DNA of 10,255 nucleotides from Bacillota bacterium (lineage in GTDB: Bacteria > Bacillota > Clostridia > Oscillospirales > Oscillospiraceae). The DNA lies in contig JAKOSQ010000112.1 in assembly GCA_029777215.1 (NCBI GenBank), forward strand, positions 1 through 10,255. The letters are read 5' to 3'. The notes under the pieces were generated by a model, which saw only the letters and a program-made list of their open reading frames with translations, did not search any database and was not told where the DNA came from. The position numbers and the translations under genes were made by a program. Of this stretch, positions 696-10,255 are shown one piece after another (within the stretch, counting starts at the first letter, position 1; each line of letters begins with the position of its first letter).

Positions 696-734
696 GAAAA
701 CATCTTGCAAGATGAAAAAGAAGGAAGTGAGACC

Positions 735-1700
735 TTGACAACGAAGGACGCGGTACTGGCGTTTCTCGAAAAGGACCGGGGCCGCTTCGTCTCGGGGCCG
801 GAGCTCGCGGAAAAGCTCTCCCTCTCCCGGACGGCGGTCTGGAAAGCCATACGGGCCCTCGAAGCGGAGGGCCATGAGATCACAGCGGTCAAGAACAAAG
901 GCTACCGTCTGGAGACGGGCAGCGACCGGCTCTCCGCGGCGGGGATATCCGCCTGTCTGCCGGAGAAACACCGGACCTGCGCGATACATTTTTTTGAGAC
1001 GACCGACTCGACCAACACGCAGGCCAAACGTCTCGCGCTCGAGGGCGCTCCCCACGGCACCATCGTCGCCGCCTCGGAGCAGACGGCGGGACGTGGGCGG
1101 AGCGGAAAGGCTTTCTTTTCGCCCGACACAGGCCTCTACGTCACAGTCATTTTAAAGCCGCCCGCCGGAATGCCGGACCCGCAGAAGATCACGATTGCCG
1201 CCGCCGTGGCGGTCTGCCGGGCCGTGGAGGCTCAGACTGCGCTCAAGCCGCAGATCAAGTGGGTCAACGACGTCTATCTCGACGGGAAAAAAGTCTGCGG
1301 CATCCTGACCGAGGCGGTCACCGACCTCGAGAGCGGCGGGATCGACAGCATCGTCGTCGGCATCGGCGTCAACTGCGCCATCCCGGCCGAGCGCATCCCA
1401 AAAGAGCTTGTCGGCATCGTCGGCTCGCTCAACGCCGAGGGGCTCTCCCGCAGCCGGCTTGCCGCCGACATCGCCGCTTTCGTGCTCGACGCCTTCGACG
1501 ATCTCGACGCCCCTGCGCTCATCGACGACTACCGCCGCCGCTCCTTCCTTTTCGGCAAAGAGATCGGCTTCAAACGCAACGGCGAAGCGCTGAACGGTAC
1601 GGTCACCGGGATCAGTGACGCCGGAAACCTCCTCGTCCGGCTTGGAAGCGGCGAAACGCTTTCGCTTTCGAGCGGCGAGGTCACGATCGGCAAACTATAA
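735..1700 (+). CDS. birA: BirA, biotin-protein ligase and biotin repressor
   Basis: This 321-residue protein attaches biotin, via biotinyl-AMP, to the lysine of biotin carboxyl carrier domains and represses biotin genes. The N-terminal winged helix-turn-helix is visible at about residues 25-49 (LAEKLSLSRTAVWKAIRALE), so this is the bifunctional type. The ligase domain carries the adenylate-binding loop TAGRGRSGKAF (about 117-127) and KWVNDVYLDGKKVCGIL (about 175-191), followed by the small C-terminal domain. I chose TTG at 735 because AAGGAAG lies just upstream (721-727). The in-frame TTG at 705 would sit almost on the transcription start. Length is normal for the family. bioY follows 15 bases after the stop and a BirA box overlaps the promoter, so the pair forms an autoregulated biotin unit. 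Confidence 0.93.
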   Translation: MTTKDAVLAFLEKDRGRFVSGPELAEKLSLSRTAVWKAIRALEAEGHEITAVKNKGYRLETGSDRLSAAGISACLPEKHRTCAIHFFETTDSTNTQAKRLALEGAPHGTIVAASEQTAGRGRSGKAFFSPDTGLYVTVILKPPAGMPDPQKITIAAAVAVCRAVEAQTALKPQIKWVNDVYLDGKKVCGILTEAVTDLESGGIDSIVVGIGVNCAIPAERIPKELVGIVGSLNAEGLSRSRLAADIAAFVLDAFDDLDAPALIDDYRRRSFLFGKEIGFKRNGEALNGTVTGISDAGNLLVRLGSGETLSLSSGEVTIGKL

Positions 1701-1715
1701 GGAGGAATATTTAAA

Positions 1716-2297
1716 ATGGAAGAAAAGCAAATCAAAAAACCGTTTCTGACCACGAAGGAAATGGTCTTCTGCGCCATGTTCACGGCGCTCATAGCCGCCG
1801 GGGCTTTCATCAGCTTCCCCCTGCCCTCCGGCGTCCCCGTCTCGCTGCAGTTTTTGTTCACGAACCTCGCCGGTGTCCTGCTCGGCCGCAAAAAGGGCCT
1901 GACCTCCTGCCTTGTCTACATCATTTTAGGCCTCATCGGCATCCCGATTTTCACCGCCGGCGGCGGCATCGGCTACGTTTTGAAGCCCAGCTTCGGCTAC
2001 ATCATCGGCTTTGCCGTCGGCGCGTGGCTCGCGGGATACATCTCCGAAAAGGGTAAGAGCACGGTCATGTCCTACATCTGGGCGAGCCTCGCCAACATGG
2101 CGGTCGTCTTCGCGATCGGCCTTGTCTACTTCTATTTCATCATGAACTACTACGTCGGCAAGCCCCTCGATCTCCAGACGCTTTTCGTCACGGGCTTCCT
2201 CGTCTTCGCCCCGGCGGACGTCGCCTACTGCATCCTCTCCGGCTTTCTCGCCAAGCGTCTGCAGCCCGTGCTGCAAAAGTCCTTCGCGGCGGCGTGA
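1716..2297 (+). CDS. bioY: BioY, biotin-specific S component of an ECF transporter
   Basis: This 193-residue integral membrane protein has about six hydrophobic segments and the length typical of BioY. Family signatures include PSGVPVSLQFLFTNLAGVLLG (first 20 of these at about residues 30-50), GLIGIPIF and the glycine-rich GGGIGYVLKPSFGYIIGF stretch that forms the biotin pocket. BioY captures biotin and works with the shared EcfA, EcfA' and EcfT energising module, which is not in this window and is probably encoded elsewhere. The start ATG has a strong GGAGG at 1702-1706, directly after the birA stop, so the two genes are cotranscribed and repressed together by BirA. No biotin synthesis gene is seen here, so the locus suggests salvage rather than synthesis, though biosynthesis elsewhere is possible. 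Confidence 0.93.
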   Translation: MEEKQIKKPFLTTKEMVFCAMFTALIAAGAFISFPLPSGVPVSLQFLFTNLAGVLLGRKKGLTSCLVYIILGLIGIPIFTAGGGIGYVLKPSFGYIIGFAVGAWLAGYISEKGKSTVMSYIWASLANMAVVFAIGLVYFYFIMNYYVGKPLDLQTLFVTGFLVFAPADVAYCILSGFLAKRLQPVLQKSFAAA

Positions 2298-4569: not shown

Positions 4570-5886
4570 TTAAAAGTTGACCTGCGTGCGCTTGTCGATC
4601 ACACGCTTTGCCTTGCCCTCGAAGCGTTCGATGCTCCGGGGCTCTACCAGCTTTACCCTGACGGCGATGCCGAGGACCGAGTGGATGGCCTCGGTGACCT
4701 TGCGGGTCATGTCCTCCAGAATGCGGATCTCGTCCGTGAAGGCGTCCTCCGTCATCTCGACGAGGACAGTGAGCTTGTCGAGATTACCGTCGCGCTCGAC
4801 GACCATCTGGAAGAAGGGCGCGATGCCCTCGATGTCCATGAGGACAGATTCGATCTGCGAGGGGAAGACGTTGACGCCGCGGATGATGAGCATGTCGTCC
4901 GTGCGTCCGGCGGGCTTTTGCATGCGGACGAAGGTGCGGCCGCATTCGCACTCGCCGGGCAGACGCACGCCGACGTCGTGCGTGCGGTAGCGGATGAGCG
5001 GCAGGGCCTCCTTCGTCATGCAGGTGAAGACAATCTCACCCTCCGTGCCGTCCGGCAGCTGCTCGCCGGTGTCGGGGTCGATGATCTCGATGAGGAAGTG
5101 GTCCTCGTTGACGTGCAGGCCGTGCTGGCACTCGCACTCGTAGGCAACGCCCGGGCCAATGGCTTCCGACAGGCCGTAGATGTCATACGCCTTGATCTGG
5201 AAACGATTTTCGATCTCCCTGCGCATCTCCTCCGTCCACGGCTCCGCGCCGAAGAAGCCGGCCTTGAGGCTCAGGGACGCCGGGTCGATGTTGTTCTCCG
5301 CGAGGTATTCCGCGATGGTCAGCGCGTAGGACGGGGTCGCGAGGATGAAGGTCGGCTTGAAGTCCTGCAAAATGGTGACTTGACGGCGGGTGTTGCCGGT
5401 CGAGGCCGGGATGGTCGCGCAGCCGACGGTCTCGGAGCCAAGGTTGCCGCCCATGCCGCCGGTGAACAGGCCGTAGCCGTAGCTGATGTGGCCGATGTCC
5501 TTTTTCGTCACGCCGCCCGCGCCGAGCGTGCGGGCCATGACCTCGCCCCAGATGTCGAGGTCGTGCTTCGTGTAGCCGACGACGGTCTGCTTGCCGGTCG
5601 TGCCGGAGGAGGCGTGAATGCGGACGACCTCGTCCATCGGCACGGCGAAGAGGTCAAAGGGGTAATTGTCGCGCAGATCCTGCTTGTTGGTGAACGGCAG
5701 CTTCGTGAGATCCTCGATGCTGCAGATGTCCTCGGGCTTCAGGCCCATTTCGTCGAACTTCTTTTTGTAGAATGGGACGTTTTCATAGACGCGCTTTACC
5801 ACCGCGCGCAGTCTTTCGTTCTGGAGCTTTGTGAGCTCCGCGCGCGGCATGCACTCCGCGGCTTCATTATAATAGTGATACGACAA
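4570..5886 (-). CDS. paaK: Phenylacetate-CoA ligase (PaaK) family protein
   Basis: This 438-residue cytoplasmic AMP-forming ligase joins an aryl-acetic acid (phenylacetate or a relative such as indoleacetate) to CoA through an acyl-adenylate. The phosphate-binding loop SSGTTGK is at about residues 93-99, YGLSEA at about 237-242, RYRTHDVG at about 299-306, and the C-terminal domain ends with EGKAKRVIDKR, which carries the lysine used in adenylation. I start it at TTG 5886: AGGGG lies eight bases upstream, the N-terminus (LSYHYYNEAAECMPRAEL) then matches family members, and the length is typical. The in-frame ATG at 5934 has no ribosome site. In anaerobes such enzymes often serve amino-acid fermentation beside indolepyruvate ferredoxin oxidoreductase; that partner is not in this window. 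The gene has a long regulated leader and is followed by the ACT protein. Confidence 0.9.
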   Translation of the reverse strand: MSYHYYNEAAECMPRAELTKLQNERLRAVVKRVYENVPFYKKKFDEMGLKPEDICSIEDLTKLPFTNKQDLRDNYPFDLFAVPMDEVVRIHASSGTTGKQTVVGYTKHDLDIWGEVMARTLGAGGVTKKDIGHISYGYGLFTGGMGGNLGSETVGCATIPASTGNTRRQVTILQDFKPTFILATPSYALTIAEYLAENNIDPASLSLKAGFFGAEPWTEEMRREIENRFQIKAYDIYGLSEAIGPGVAYECECQHGLHVNEDHFLIEIIDPDTGEQLPDGTEGEIVFTCMTKEALPLIRYRTHDVGVRLPGECECGRTFVRMQKPAGRTDDMLIIRGVNVFPSQIESVLMDIEGIAPFFQMVVERDGNLDKLTVLVEMTEDAFTDEIRILEDMTRKVTEAIHSVLGIAVRVKLVEPRSIERFEGKAKRVIDKRTQVNF

Positions 5887-5951
5887 TTTGAATACCCCTT
5901 TTCTGTGCGCCGGAGACCGGCGACGTTCATACATTAAAAATATGGTCCGTT

Positions 5952-6072: not shown

Positions 6073-6104
6073 AAAAAAGCCCCGCGGCGAGTCTGCCGCG
6101 GGGC
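6073..6104 (-). terminator. Intrinsic terminator in the paaK leader (attenuator)
   Basis: The perfect 10-bp stem GCCCCGCGGC (6079-6088) with GCCGCGGGGC (6095-6104) has a six-base loop. On the minus strand it is followed by TTTTTT (6078-6073), so it stops minus-strand transcripts. It lies about 190 bases before the paaK start and about 20 bases after the stop of the phenylalanine-rich frame, the position expected for transcription attenuation. Confidence 0.8.
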
Positions 6105-6125
6105 CAAAAGCTCTTTTTGCTCTTT

Positions 6126-6227
6126 TTACCCGTTATCGGACAAACCCGAATAAGCCTTACCGAAAAAGCCGGTAAAGCAAAAGGTAAAGAGGAAGCCATA
6201 TTCGGTTTTGGTGACGCTTGTATGCAT
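6126..6227 (-). CDS. Phenylalanine-rich leader peptide of the paaK operon
   Basis: This 33-codon frame starts with ATG (6227-6225) and ends in TAA (6128-6126). A GGAG (6238-6235) lies seven bases upstream, and an extended -10 promoter about 35 bases upstream. Six of 33 residues are Phe (codon positions 12, 14, 16, 18, 21, 22; core GFLFTFCFTGFFG) and two are Tyr. Classic attenuators such as enterobacterial pheL have Phe-rich leader peptides followed by a terminator, which is the arrangement here. Its position upstream of an aryl-acid CoA ligase and an ACT protein fits sensing of phenylalanine supply. I could not find a strong antiterminator that competes with the terminator stem, so the mechanism could differ from the enterobacterial one (for example ribosome arrest with Rho). 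Confidence 0.55.
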   Translation of the reverse strand: MHTSVTKTEYGFLFTFCFTGFFGKAYSGLSDNG

Positions 6228-6259
6228 GATCTCTCTCCAAACAGGCTTTGATGAAAAAA

Positions 6260-6268
6260 AGTATAACA
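6260..6268 (-). promoter_or_regulatory. Extended -10 promoter of the paaK leader
   Basis: The minus strand reads TGTTATACT (6268-6260), that is TGn followed by the -10 hexamer TATACT. No good -35 is seen, which is usual for extended -10 promoters. Transcription would start near 6253, leaving about 25 bases before the leader peptide start. Confidence 0.55.
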
Positions 6269-6521: not shown

Positions 6522-6636
6522 ACTAACAATTACAGTGGTTGAAGGTGAAAAATCAAGCAGTAAGCGTACTCAAGATGACTTCGTCTGATCGCGGGGTCGT
6601 TTTTTGTATAAACACCAATCTACAGGAGGAAAGAAA

Positions 6637-7824
6637 ATGAAAAAGTTTATCAGCCTCGCGCTCTGCCTGGCGCTGATGGTCGGCTGCATGGCCGGCTGCG
6701 GCAGCAAGGGCAACAACACAAGCGCGACCAGCGCAAGCCCCGCCGCCTCCGCATCCGCCACCGCCATCAAGATCGGCGGCACAGGCCCGCTCTCCGGCGC
6801 GGCTGCGATCTACGGCACCGCCGCCAAAAACGGCGCGAAGATCGCCGTTGACGAAATCAACGCCATGGGCGAATCCATCCAGTTCGACCTCAAGTATGAG
6901 GACGACGAGCACGACGCCGAAAAGGCCGTCAACGCCTACAACACCCTCAAGGACTGGGGCATGCAGATTTCTCTCGGCTCCGTCACCTCCAAGCCGTGCG
7001 AAGCGACCTCCGCACTGACCTATGAAGACCGCATCTTCGCGCTGACCCCGTCTGCCTCCTCCACCGCTGTCACCGAGGGCAAGGACAACCAGTTCCAGAT
7101 GTGCTTCTCCGACCCGAACCAGGGCACTGCTTCCGCACAGTACATCTCCGACCAGAAGCTCGGCACAAAGATCGCCGTCATCTATAAGAACGACGACGTT
7201 TACTCCAAGGGCATCTACGACAAGTTCGCCTCCAAGGCAAAGGAGCTCGGCCTCAACATCGTCTCCGCCACCACCTTCACCGACGACAGCCAGACGGACT
7301 TCACCGTCCAGCTCTCCGAGGCCCAGAAGGCCGGCGCGGACCTCCTGTTCCTGCCGATGTACTATCAGCCCGCCTCCCTCATCCTCAGCCAGGCCAAATC
7401 CATGAACTACGCTCCGAAGTTCTTCGGCGTTGACGGCATGGACGGCATCCTCACGATGGAAGGCTTCGACGCCTCCCTTGCAGAGGGCGTCATGCTCCTG
7501 ACCCCGTTCAACGCGGACTCCACCGATGAGAAGACACAGAGCTTCGTCAAGAAGTACAAGGAACTCTACAACGAGACCCCGAACCAGTTTGCAGCCGACG
7601 CCTATGACTGCGTCTATGCGCTCTACAGCGCCTGCAAGATCGCCGGCATCACCTCCGACATGGACGCCTCCTCCATCTGCGACAAGATGGTCGCCACCTT
7701 CACGGACGCGAACTTCAAGTTCGACGGTCTGACCGGCACCGGCGTCACTTGGGACAAGACCGGCGCGGTCTCCAAGACCCCGAAGGGCATGGTCATCAAG
7801 AACGGCGCATACGCCGGTATGTGA
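6637..7824 (+). CDS. livJ: LivJ-type amino-acid-binding lipoprotein
   Basis: This 395-residue substrate-binding protein belongs to an ABC importer for branched-chain or related hydrophobic amino acids. The N-terminus MKKFISLALCLALMVG is a lipoprotein signal; the lipobox is most likely MAGC with Cys21 as the lipid-bearing residue (Cys17 is a second candidate). A Ser/Ala/Thr-rich linker to about residue 45 follows. The type I periplasmic-binding fold begins at AIKIGGTGPLSGAAA and continues through NGAKIAVDEINAMG and KIAVIYKNDDVYSKG. The start ATG has AGGAGG at 6624-6629; an upstream in-frame TTG at 6604 would put extra residues before the signal peptide. The product would be anchored outside the membrane and pass its ligand to LivH/LivM. 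The specificity (Leu/Ile/Val, aromatic amino acids, or other) cannot be fixed from the sequence. Confidence 0.93.
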   Translation: MKKFISLALCLALMVGCMAGCGSKGNNTSATSASPAASASATAIKIGGTGPLSGAAAIYGTAAKNGAKIAVDEINAMGESIQFDLKYEDDEHDAEKAVNAYNTLKDWGMQISLGSVTSKPCEATSALTYEDRIFALTPSASSTAVTEGKDNQFQMCFSDPNQGTASAQYISDQKLGTKIAVIYKNDDVYSKGIYDKFASKAKELGLNIVSATTFTDDSQTDFTVQLSEAQKAGADLLFLPMYYQPASLILSQAKSMNYAPKFFGVDGMDGILTMEGFDASLAEGVMLLTPFNADSTDEKTQSFVKKYKELYNETPNQFAADAYDCVYALYSACKIAGITSDMDASSICDKMVATFTDANFKFDGLTGTGVTWDKTGAVSKTPKGMVIKNGAYAGM

Positions 7825-7846
7825 TCTCCCCACCAGAAGCTTTGGC

Positions 7847-7889
7847 GCAGGGGCTGCCGCATTACCCGGCAGCCCTTGCTTTGGTTTTT
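7847..7889 (+). terminator. Hairpin between livJ and livH (partial terminator)
   Basis: A 13-bp stem with one G-T pair (7847-7859 with 7867-7879) is followed by an interrupted T-rich run (7880-7889). A hairpin after the binding-protein gene usually protects that message and lets only part of transcription continue, giving more binding protein than permease. Positions 7890-8015 otherwise hold only the livH ribosome site. Confidence 0.8.
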
Positions 7890-8015
7890 CATTTTCGTGC
7901 GCAAGGTGTCGAAAAGGAAGCTGACAGGACCTGACGAGTGTATTTTCGGGCCTTGTCACCTTCCCTGTCGCTGCTTTGCAGTTCCGTTTTATCAAATATA
8001 ATTGAGGTGTGCTGC

Positions 8016-8897
8016 ATGAATTTTCTGTTCTATGTGATCAGCGGGATCAGCCTCGGCAGTATCTATGCGATCATCGCGCTCGGCTACACCATGGTCTACG
8101 GCATCGCCAAGATGCTCAACTTCGCCCACGGCGACGTCATCATGGTCGGCGCCTACATTTCCTTTTGCGCGACCAGTTACTGGGGCATGTCCCCGTTCAT
8201 GTCCGTGATCGTTTCAATGCTCGTTTGCACGGTGCTCGGCGTCGTGATCGAGCGTCTGGCCTACAGGCCGCTGCGGCAGGCAACCTCCCTCGCCGTCCTC
8301 ATCACAGCGATCGGCGTGTCCTACCTGCTCGAAAACCTCGCGCTTCTCATCTGGACCTCCAACCCGAAGGTCTTCACCTCCATCGTCGGTACTGGCTCCG
8401 TCAAGCTCTTCGGCGGTCAGATGTCCATCACGACCGTGACGCTCGTGACCATTGCGGTCTGCGTCGCCATCATGATTGGCCTCACGCTCTTCACGAGCAA
8501 GACCAAGATGGGCAAGGCCATGCGCGCCGTGTCCGAGGACAAGGGCGCGGCCCAGCTCATGGGCATCAATGTTGACACAACGATCTCCGTTACCTTCGCG
8601 ATTGGCTCCGGCCTCGCGGCGGTCGCGGGCGTGTTGCTGTGCTCCGCCTACCCGACGCTGACCCCGATGACCGGCTTCATGCCCGGCATCAAGGCCTTCA
8701 CGGCGGCGGTCTTCGGCGGCATCGGCTCCGTTCCCGGCGCGATGATCGGCGGCATCCTTCTGGGCATCATCGAGATTTTCGGCAAGGCTTACATCTCCAC
8801 CCAGCTCTCTGACGCCATCGTCTTTGCCGTTTTGATCATCGTCCTGCTCGTCAAACCGACCGGCCTGCTCGGCAAGCCGATCAACGAGAAAGTCTGA
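8016..8897 (+). CDS. livH: LivH-type branched-chain amino-acid ABC permease
   Basis: This 293-residue membrane protein is one of the two permease subunits of the transporter. It has about eight hydrophobic segments, the family motif MLNFAHGD (about residues 33-40) and a cytoplasmic EAA-type loop KAMRAVSEDKGAAQLMGIN (about 167-185) that docks on the ATPases. I start at ATG 8016, with GAGGTG at 8004-8009, because the protein then begins MNFLFYVISGISLGSIYAII, as family members do. In-frame codons upstream would add a non-homologous 26-residue extension. livM begins ten bases after the stop, in one operon with it. Confidence 0.94.
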   Translation: MNFLFYVISGISLGSIYAIIALGYTMVYGIAKMLNFAHGDVIMVGAYISFCATSYWGMSPFMSVIVSMLVCTVLGVVIERLAYRPLRQATSLAVLITAIGVSYLLENLALLIWTSNPKVFTSIVGTGSVKLFGGQMSITTVTLVTIAVCVAIMIGLTLFTSKTKMGKAMRAVSEDKGAAQLMGINVDTTISVTFAIGSGLAAVAGVLLCSAYPTLTPMTGFMPGIKAFTAAVFGGIGSVPGAMIGGILLGIIEIFGKAYISTQLSDAIVFAVLIIVLLVKPTGLLGKPINEKV

Positions 8898-8907
8898 GGG
8901 CCGCGAC

Positions 8908-10026
8908 ATGAAAAAAGAAAGACTCTCATCCGCCCCGAAAAAGCCGATGACGAAGTCCGCCAGGGACACCGTCACCTGCTACGGCATCGTCATCGTCGCC
9001 TATATCGTCATCTCGATCCTTTTAAACGGCGGCCACGTCAACTCCTCGATGAAGGGCCTGCTCATCCCGATCTGCGCTTACATCGTCATGGCGCTGTCCC
9101 TGAACCTCACGGTCGGCATCCTCGGCGAGCTGTCCCTCGGCCACGCGGGCTTCATGAGCGTCGGCGCGTTTTCCGGCGTTGTCGCCGCAATGAGCCTCAA
9201 GGGCGCCATCGCCTCCACCCCGCTGCTGCTCGCCGTGTCGATGCTCATCGCCGCCGGCTGCGCCGCGATCGCGGGCTTCCTCGTCGGCATCCCGGTGCTG
9301 CGCCTCAACGGCGACTACCTCGCCATAGTGACGCTCGCTTTCGGTGAGATCATCAAGAACCTCATCAACTGCCTCTATGTCGGTCACGACGCCGACGGCC
9401 TGCACTTTGCCTTCCTCAAGACCTCCGACGCCCTCGGCCTCGCGGACGGCGGCAAGGTCATCATCAACGGGCCGATGGGCGTGTCCGGCATTCCGAAGCT
9501 CTCTACCTTCACGGCCGGGTTTATCCTGATCTTAATTACCCTGTTCATCATTCTGAACCTCGTCCACAGCCGGCAGGGCCGCGCGATCATGGCCATCCGC
9601 GACAACCGCATCGCAGCTGAGAGCGTCGGCATCAACGTGACGCAGTATAAGCTCATGGCTTTTGTGACCTCCGCCGCGCTCGCGGGCGCGTCGGGCGCGC
9701 TGTACGCGATGAATTTCACGACGGTCGTCTCCTCGAAGTTCAACTTTTTCACATCTATCATCGTGCTGGTCTATGTCGTCCTCGGCGGACTCGGCAACAT
9801 GTGGGGCACGATCATTTCCGCAACACTCCTTACACTTCTACCGGAACTGCTGCGCAAGTTCGGTGACTACCGCATGCTGATCTACGCGCTGGTCCTCATC
9901 ATCGTGATGGTCGTGTCGAACAACGCGAACTTCAAGGCTTTCTTTACCCGCCTTTTCTCCAAGGAGAAGAGCGCGGACGTCCCGTCCGCGGACGCCGACA
10001 CGAAGGGAGGCGCGGCAAATGAATAA
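8908..10026 (+). CDS. livM: LivM-type branched-chain amino-acid ABC permease
   Basis: This 372-residue second permease subunit has a basic cytoplasmic N-terminus, many hydrophobic segments, the motif LSLGHAGFMSVGAFSG (about residues 72-87), and the EAA-type loop RAIMAIRDNRIAAESVGIN (about 225-243). A hydrophilic C-terminal tail rich in Lys, Asp and Ala follows the last membrane segment. The start has only a modest GAGGG that overlaps the livH stop region, so it is probably helped by translational coupling. A perfect 8-bp hairpin (9972-9979 with 9983-9990) lies in the tail coding sequence just before the livG ribosome site. The stop overlaps the livG start by eight bases. Confidence 0.94.
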   Translation: MKKERLSSAPKKPMTKSARDTVTCYGIVIVAYIVISILLNGGHVNSSMKGLLIPICAYIVMALSLNLTVGILGELSLGHAGFMSVGAFSGVVAAMSLKGAIASTPLLLAVSMLIAAGCAAIAGFLVGIPVLRLNGDYLAIVTLAFGEIIKNLINCLYVGHDADGLHFAFLKTSDALGLADGGKVIINGPMGVSGIPKLSTFTAGFILILITLFIILNLVHSRQGRAIMAIRDNRIAAESVGINVTQYKLMAFVTSAALAGASGALYAMNFTTVVSSKFNFFTSIIVLVYVVLGGLGNMWGTIISATLLTLLPELLRKFGDYRMLIYALVLIIVMVVSNNANFKAFFTRLFSKEKSADVPSADADTKGGAANE

Positions 10027-10255
10027 CCAGAAGCGGCATCCCGACACCAAGATGGTCCCCGTCCCCTCCGTGAACATCGTTCCGGAGCGCGATGTCGACA
10101 AGACGCCGATCCTCGAGGTCTCGCACCTCGGCATCGACTTCGGCGGCCTCACCGCCGTCGACGACTTCAACATGGCCATCGGCCGCACCGAGATCGCGGG
10201 CCTCATCGGCCCGAACGGCGCGGGCAAGACGACCATCTTCAACCTTCTCACCAAG
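10019..10255 (+). CDS. livG: LivG-type amino-acid ABC transporter ATPase (partial)
   Basis: The first 79 codons of an ABC ATPase, cut by the right edge of the window. The nucleotide-binding domain begins near residue 31 (ILEVSHLGIDFGGLTAVDDF) and contains the Walker A motif GPNGAGKTT (residues 64-72). ATG 10019 overlaps the livM stop, and GGGAGG (10005-10010) lies eight bases upstream. Before the ABC domain there is an unusual proline- and charge-containing extension of about 30 residues; no better start codon with a ribosome site lies downstream. With livJ, livH and livM it completes most of the transporter. livF is expected just beyond the window. Confidence 0.92.
   Translation, partial: MNNQKRHPDTKMVPVPSVNIVPERDVDKTPILEVSHLGIDFGGLTAVDDFNMAIGRTEIAGLIGPNGAGKTTIFNLLTK

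Follow-up and report, generated by a model that had tools for sequence, protein, structure and literature searches.

The region upstream of a paaK-like gene in a genome of the Oscillospiraceae raises the question of whether a short reading frame dense in phenylalanine codons, together with the terminator that follows it, forms a transcription attenuator, and what such a device would be doing in front of an aryl-acid CoA ligase. The window, that is the whole stretch of DNA analysed, comprises 10,255 nucleotides of contig JAKOSQ010000112.1, and the genome from which it comes is referred to here as G000. A first-pass annotation had proposed attenuation by a translating ribosome, and had regarded this as unusual in the Firmicutes, where T-boxes are the expected device.

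The elements of the leader all lie on the minus strand. An extended -10 promoter element (TGTTATACT, 6268-6260), recognised by the TGnTAnnnT pattern and by comparison with relatives, is followed by a ribosome binding site (GGAGAGAG, 6238-6231) and by a frame of 33 codons closed by TAA (6227-6126, with its ATG at 6227-6225). The encoded peptide, MHTSVTKTEYGFLFTFCFTGFFGKAYSGLSDNG, includes two Tyr and six Phe, the latter at codons 12, 14, 16, 18, 21 and 22. Downstream lies an intrinsic terminator (6105-6073), identified by its sequence and by covariation, whose hairpin (6105-6078) has 11 pairs, 10 of them G-C, and a loop of 6, followed by six T. These four elements had been listed in the first-pass annotation, and each was found where it had been placed. 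The extended -10 is missing from the output of a two-hexamer promoter scan of the window, indicating that it has no good -35 to accompany it; among 115 distinct related copies, 111 have the TGnTAnnnT pattern at a distance of 36-65 nt on the 5' side of the ATG, as opposed to 7.7% of shuffled stretches. The leader strand also folds more stably than dinucleotide shuffles of itself (z -3.80; 0 of 200 shuffles as stable). Fold stability, the enrichment of the extended -10, and the recurrence of leader, terminator and antiterminator in relatives confirm that the elements of the leader exceed chance. Longer frames overlap the leader, two of 58 and 92 codons on its own minus strand and one of 98 codons on the plus strand; that the leader belongs to one of them was rejected, because the ATG at 6227 has a ribosome site and agrees with the starts of the relatives.

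The putative controlled gene encodes a paaK-like aryl-acid CoA ligase (5886-4570, minus strand), identified by model match, and is followed by a second gene for an ACT domain pair protein (PF19571, 4557-4132, minus strand). The ligase gene most likely starts with the TTG at 5886 and not with the ATG at 5934, because relatives have a start codon at precisely that place (TTG in G001, G005, G006, G007 and G010; ATG in G004 and at L187). At 586 bits the protein falls short of the cut-off of the PaaK equivalog model (646 bits), so that calling it a 'paaK-like aryl-acid CoA ligase' is safer than the plain paaK of the first-pass annotation.

Elsewhere in the window, a divergent liv-type ABC transporter operon occupies positions 6604-10255 of the plus strand, beginning with a gene for a substrate-binding protein (6604-7824); by resemblance, a related substrate-binding gene stands at the same place in G003, G005, G006, G007 and G008, and another at L187 (31% identical). 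Given this recurring position, the transporter may take up aromatic acids or amino acids. Further away are a tRNA-Arg (CCG) gene (4036-3960, minus strand) with a promoter-like site just upstream (4088-4060), and a biotin ligase and biotin transporter pair, birA then bioY (705-2297, plus strand).

Within the leader RNA, three alternative pairings can be drawn. Segment 1 (6210-6199) pairs with segment 2 (6152-6129) in the minimum free energy structure of the free RNA; segment 2, which lies just 3' of the Phe codons, provides the 3' side of this 1:2 helix as well as the 5' side of the antiterminator, and is complementary to segment 3 (6105-6088), which is the 5' arm and loop of the terminator and would form the 3' side of the antiterminator; segments 3 and 4 together make up the terminator. 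Between segments 1 and 2, folding places an inner hairpin (GCUUUACCG/CGGUAAGGC, 6178-6154) with a loop that overlaps the last two Phe codons. In the folding model the 1:2, 2:3 and 3:4 pairings follow textbook attenuator logic.

On the strength of its elements and of their recurrence, of the preserved reading frame and of the compensatory changes in both antiterminator and terminator, we regard the leader as very probably a classical three-helix attenuator of transcription, worked by a translating ribosome, that would sense charged tRNA-Phe. We infer the start site, the stalling, the response to Phe and the consequence for paaK as follows. Transcription would start near 6253. When Phe is plentiful, the ribosome would pass the six Phe codons, reach the stop codon and hide segment 2, whereupon the terminator (6105-6073) would form and the paaK-ACT genes would not be transcribed. 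When Phe-tRNA is scarce, the ribosome would stall at one of the Phe codons between 12 and 22 and break the 1:2 helix, leaving segment 2 free to pair with the emerging 5' arm of the terminator, and the polymerase would continue into paaK-ACT. Without translation, the 1:2 helix would favour termination. The features looked for in an attenuator were found: a short, Phe-rich frame, a terminator between the leader and the first gene, an antiterminator that, on the sequence and the folding model, cannot coexist with the terminator and is covered by a ribosome standing on the stop codon, and, in the survey of species described below, target genes of aromatic metabolism.

The effect of the position of the ribosome was modelled by placing each codon from 9 up to the stop in the A-site in turn and masking the RNA to 13 bases past the first base of that codon. 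While the A-site holds one of codons 9-23, a range that takes in all six Phe codons and the first of the Tyr codons, an antiterminator of 14 pairs can form before the 3' arm of the terminator exists; on codons 24-28 the number of antiterminator pairs left drops from 11 to 4, and from codon 29 to the stop there are none. Once the RNA is complete, the terminator has the greater stability whatever the mask, so that antitermination would have to be kinetic, chosen during synthesis of the RNA.

If the leader is an attenuator, it might be expected to recur with its parts intact. A search of 11 genomes of the genus with the 33-residue leader peptide found it in nine, and aroF (DAHP synthase) is present in exactly those nine genomes, the remaining two having neither; weak matches of a profile built from 11 leaders in G002 (E 0.34) and G009 (E 0.05) were taken as chance. 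Two layouts were encountered. In G005, G006 and G007 a single leader precedes one operon in the order aroF-aroB-aroA-(chorismate mutase/prephenate dehydratase)-(aroE-aroK)-aroQ-paaK-ACT, its enzymes having been identified by models in G005 and by resemblance of the translations elsewhere; G003 has two contigs whose pieces fit the same order. In G001, G010 and G004, paaK has a leader of its own, and a separate leader stands before aroF and then a tyrA-like gene, which in G010 matches prephenate dehydrogenase models below their cut-offs. The window corresponds to the paaK half of this second layout: in G000 the aroF match lies right at the start of its contig, leaving no upstream sequence in which a leader could be seen, and a search of G000 for further leader copies found none at E 10. 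In G008 a leader copy stands before aroF and a tyrA-like gene. The first-pass annotation had suggested aligning the region in relatives as a check, and the outcome is favourable: directly upstream of paaK, the window, G001, G010, G004 and L187 (where paaK is 80% identical to that of the window) all retain the short frame with its Phe codons as well as the terminator, and these features are kept likewise before aroF operons, including those of the four genomes that combine aroF with paaK.

Several further observations were made within the genus. G008 has a second leader (L048:362-436, G008:C202), beside a liv operon, which ends right after the GKA motif of the peptide and runs off its contig; paaK of this genome lies behind an aroK-like gene on a different contig. 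The aroF leader of G004 (L160, 3376-3568, G004:C119) carries a frameshift within a run of T, either an assembly slip or a decaying copy. Extra aroF paralogues exist in G005, G006, G007 and G008 (L275, L276, L277 and two more places), and the profile of 11 leaders gave no strong match near them.

Beyond the genus, this profile of 11 leaders matched 34 of 400 genomes of the family at E 0.001, detection being patchy. Inspection of 36 family loci, 23 chosen automatically and 13 by hand, down to E 0.07, showed aroF within 700 bases downstream in 32 and not in the other 4. Peptide matches at L088, L090, L092 and L093, with neither aroF nor paaK within 700 bases, were considered spurious; L050 was rejected as lying inside a long coding frame, and L248 as a wrong-frame match immediately upstream of a genuine copy. 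At the level of the order, 30 of 394 genomes matched at E 0.01, and the 15 new loci, from several families, all precede aroF. A profile of 43 leaders found, besides its own match, two matches at E 0.001 in the class (391 genomes searched) and two in the phylum (398 genomes); all four lie before aroF, and one of them is in the same family. Three aroF leaders, L283, L284 and L285, which the peptide alone revealed in a different family of this class and in genomes beyond it, suggest an older origin or a transfer of the leader.

Finally, 84,980 species, each represented by one genome, were scanned for a DNA pattern that combines the inner hairpin with the beginning of segment 2; the results overlap in part with those of the peptide searches. 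The 116 stretches found are followed by aroF in 110 cases, by paaK in 4 (G010, G001, G004 and the record behind L187), and in 2 by too little downstream sequence (less than 350 bases). Their labels are Oscillibacter, Dysosmobacter, Lawsonibacter, Colidextribacter and Flintibacter, all Oscillospiraceae, or unplaced Clostridia, Firmicutes or Bacillota, with single ones labelled Christensenella, Angelakisella and Fimivivens. A cultured carrier is Oscillibacter valericigenes, with an aroF copy of the leader (L097, AP012044). Judged by gene order, the usual target of the leader is aroF, and paaK is the apparent target in one clade. Two things were not visible to the first-pass annotation: the main target elsewhere is aroF, and in most aroF copies Tyr codons belong to the signal.

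A terminator-like hairpin lies downstream of the leader in 118 of 118 distinct copies. For covariation, 60 copies were chosen from 81 representatives; since these copies are related, the pairing and covariation counts that follow are not probabilities. In the antiterminator 96.9% of cells are paired, in contrast to 13-67% when the partner is slid, and there are 44 double-side changes versus 12.2 in shuffles, several columns of segment 2 being limited by the search pattern whereas the letters of the terminator are not so limited. Two of the five antiterminator measures do not rise above the shuffles (double-change pairs, 141/500; further pair types, 198/500). The terminator is 98.3% paired, with 81 double changes versus 23.1. 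Along with the recurrence of the leader in relatives, the antiterminator helix and its compensatory changes bear out the layout of ribosome-mediated attenuation recognised in the first-pass annotation.

Pairing energies are consistent with the same picture. Over 85 distinct types, segments 2 and 3 from the same copy pair with a mean of -14.55 against -13.13 when partners are permuted (sd 0.19; 0 of 20,000 permutations as good), an advantage that lies mostly between sequence classes: in the commonest class cognate partners reach -15.1 and non-cognate ones -15.0, and a foreign partner binds as well as a copy's own in 37% of cases on average. For segments 1 and 2 the cognate mean is -11.97 versus -11.18 (sd 0.17; 0 of 5,000 as good). 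Not every copy has a strong segment 1 (L058 and L073 reach only -6.1 kcal/mol); its commonest form, AGCYGAAUACCG, resembles the terminator arm AGCCGAACCG. One branch (L069, L073, L074, L076, L087, L091 and L109) has another terminator arm, CUUCACGGUG, and segment 2 has changed with it to GGGUUUCACC. The letters of the inner hairpin are fixed by the search pattern, and its invariance among pattern-selected copies is no evidence of covariation; a looser expression, which itself limits the result, finds the hairpin in 37 of 47 peptide-selected copies, 9 of the 37 having other letters and all of them 8 or 9 of the 9 pairs.

The coding character of the leader is visible in how it varies. Of 118 distinct copies, 116 have a hairpin loop inside the frame of 6, 9 or 12 bases, lengths divisible by three. 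Loops that preserve the frame in this way would hardly be expected of an untranslated RNA, and the leader is therefore probably translated. An in-frame ATG is available for 117 of the 118 copies and a ribosome-site-like stretch before it for 112, the choice of start having favoured both. In five copies (L075, L080, L187, L190 and L204) the stop follows GKA directly, just before segment 2. Over 117 copies the averages are 5.0 Phe, 3.6 Tyr and 0.06 Trp per leader. In the control stretch, from residue 9 to GKA, the five leaders directly before paaK (window, G001, G010, G004 and L187) have 5-7 Phe and 0-1 Tyr; where aroF and paaK share an operon, the leaders have 5-7 Phe with 1-2 Tyr, and the three leaders before aroF and a tyrA-like gene have 3-5 Phe and 3 Tyr. 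For 103 copies outside the genus the means are 3.9 Phe and 3.15 Tyr, with at least two Tyr in 101 and none in one. These codon counts suggest that the leader before paaK has been retuned toward Phe, the paaK copies being few and related.

Three other explanations need to be weighed against attenuation. The short frame could encode an independent small protein, the terminator being the end of its gene and the paaK promoter lying between 6072 and 5887. Such a protein might account for the invariant core of the peptide (F-T and G-K-A in 11 leaders) and for the C-terminal part that is kept in many copies, but the conserved C-terminal codons are those of segment 2, which covaries with the terminator arm, and the other positions vary (mean column identity 40% over 43 leaders). 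Moreover, 6 of 118 copies end immediately after GKA, the window leader has no Pfam or NCBIfam match, and 114 of the 116 pattern loci precede aroF or paaK, a placement that helps to make an independent protein improbable.

An RNA switch independent of translation, similar to a riboswitch or T-box and binding an aromatic compound or a tRNA, would fit the stable structure, in genomes where T-boxes are common. Against it stand the in-frame loop, the in-frame starts and the ribosome-site-like stretches, the start choice having favoured the latter two, as well as the absence of an Rfam match to the leader at the gathering score; we consider a switch of this kind very improbable. Nor do we give much credence to the idea that the element arrived with an aroF operon and is now an idle relic before paaK, which of the alternatives seems to us the hardest to believe. 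That paaK is a rare target (the window besides four of the 116 pattern loci) would suit a relic, yet the paaK leaders named above retain the frame, the Phe codons, the terminator and the complementary segments, and their control stretch, with at most one Tyr, looks like selection rather than decay. Attenuation by a translating ribosome is the reading that we retain.

The closest classical counterpart is the Phe operon leader of enterobacteria (pheL-pheA, the Phe leader of Rfam), in which a Phe-rich peptide and a switch between antiterminator and terminator respond to Phe-tRNA. The window leader has the same layout and, as proposed, the same signal, but it differs in host phylum and in target genes, and it matches no Rfam family, Phe leader included, at the gathering score. 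With the window scanned to E 5, the only Rfam hits over the leader were ncS025 (24.4 bits, cut-off 46) and anti-hemB (19.1, cut-off 49.5), and at the gathering score eight related loci yielded tRNAs only. The T-box (RF00230) is like the proposed leader in sensing the charging of one tRNA and switching a terminator; a T-box binds tRNA without translation, and its model does not match at the window leader. The expectation that Firmicutes use T-boxes does apply to G000, which has 10 matches, but among the matches listed none falls on the leader-to-operon stretches. The 11 leaders have no Pfam match, and the two NCBIfam families that matched one member each (E 0.16 and 0.23) were taken as chance.

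In the open-licence literature, searched by titles and the starts of abstracts, neither an aromatic leader of the Oscillospirales nor a paaK attenuator was found. The nearest description found is that of the uORFC-13-1 motif upstream of aroF, known from 24 examples in Acholeplasma and environmental sequences with a U run coding at least one Phe (PMC8632094). As excerpted, this account describes a promoter, a ribosome site, a short Phe frame and a terminator before aroF, like those of the window leader, and proposes attenuation; the excerpt mentions another helix and no antiterminator, whereas the family described here has one (PMC8632094). Compared by description only, the present family also differs in occurring mostly in Oscillospiraceae and their relatives, in its long conserved peptide, in its Tyr codons and in its second target, paaK. 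His leader peptides of Firmicutes provide a precedent, in the excerpted accounts, for amino acid leader peptides that replace T-boxes, and differ from the window leader in their histidine codons and histidine genes (PMC2965389, PMC9413887). As far as these searches reach, in Rfam, Pfam, NCBIfam and the literature, the leader represents a previously undescribed family within a known kind of device, with a target gene that is likewise new.

This returns us to the role of the ligase. Genes turned on by shortage of an amino acid usually serve its synthesis or import, and in a route of anaerobes phenylacetate, activated by an AMP-forming ligase, could then be converted, by a ferredoxin oxidoreductase of the indolepyruvate type, to phenylpyruvate and thence to Phe. 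A search of open-licence papers for this phenylacetate-to-Phe route in anaerobes gave no result. The alpha subunit of indolepyruvate ferredoxin oxidoreductase reaches its cut-off in 8 of the 11 genus genomes but not in G000, G002 and G004, with a strong partial match in G004; prephenate dehydratase occurs in 7 of the 11 and was not found in G000, G002, G008 and G009, absence of a gene from G000 being little proof, as this assembly consists of 376 contigs at 90% completeness. If it is induced by Phe shortage, the paaK-like ligase would be predicted to serve Phe synthesis from phenylacetate.

The family amounts to a common aromatic amino acid attenuator, with more than 100 copies, in bacteria where T-boxes are the expected device, and it is undescribed as far as the searches reach. 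Its leaders before paaK, before aroF-paaK and before aroF with a tyrA-like gene form a series that bears on the retuning of control codons after an attenuator has been transferred to other genes. Tentatively, and with doubt prevailing somewhat, the aromatic attenuator of a shikimate operon may have been copied to paaK, where its mixed Phe/Tyr signal was retuned to a nearly pure Phe signal. The regulatory signal would then amount to a prediction about the enzyme, namely that a ligase induced by Phe shortage should make Phe from phenylacetate. If true, the retuned paaK leader would show that the ligase serves Phe synthesis, by way of phenylacetyl-CoA and phenylpyruvate, and not the breakdown of aromatic compounds.
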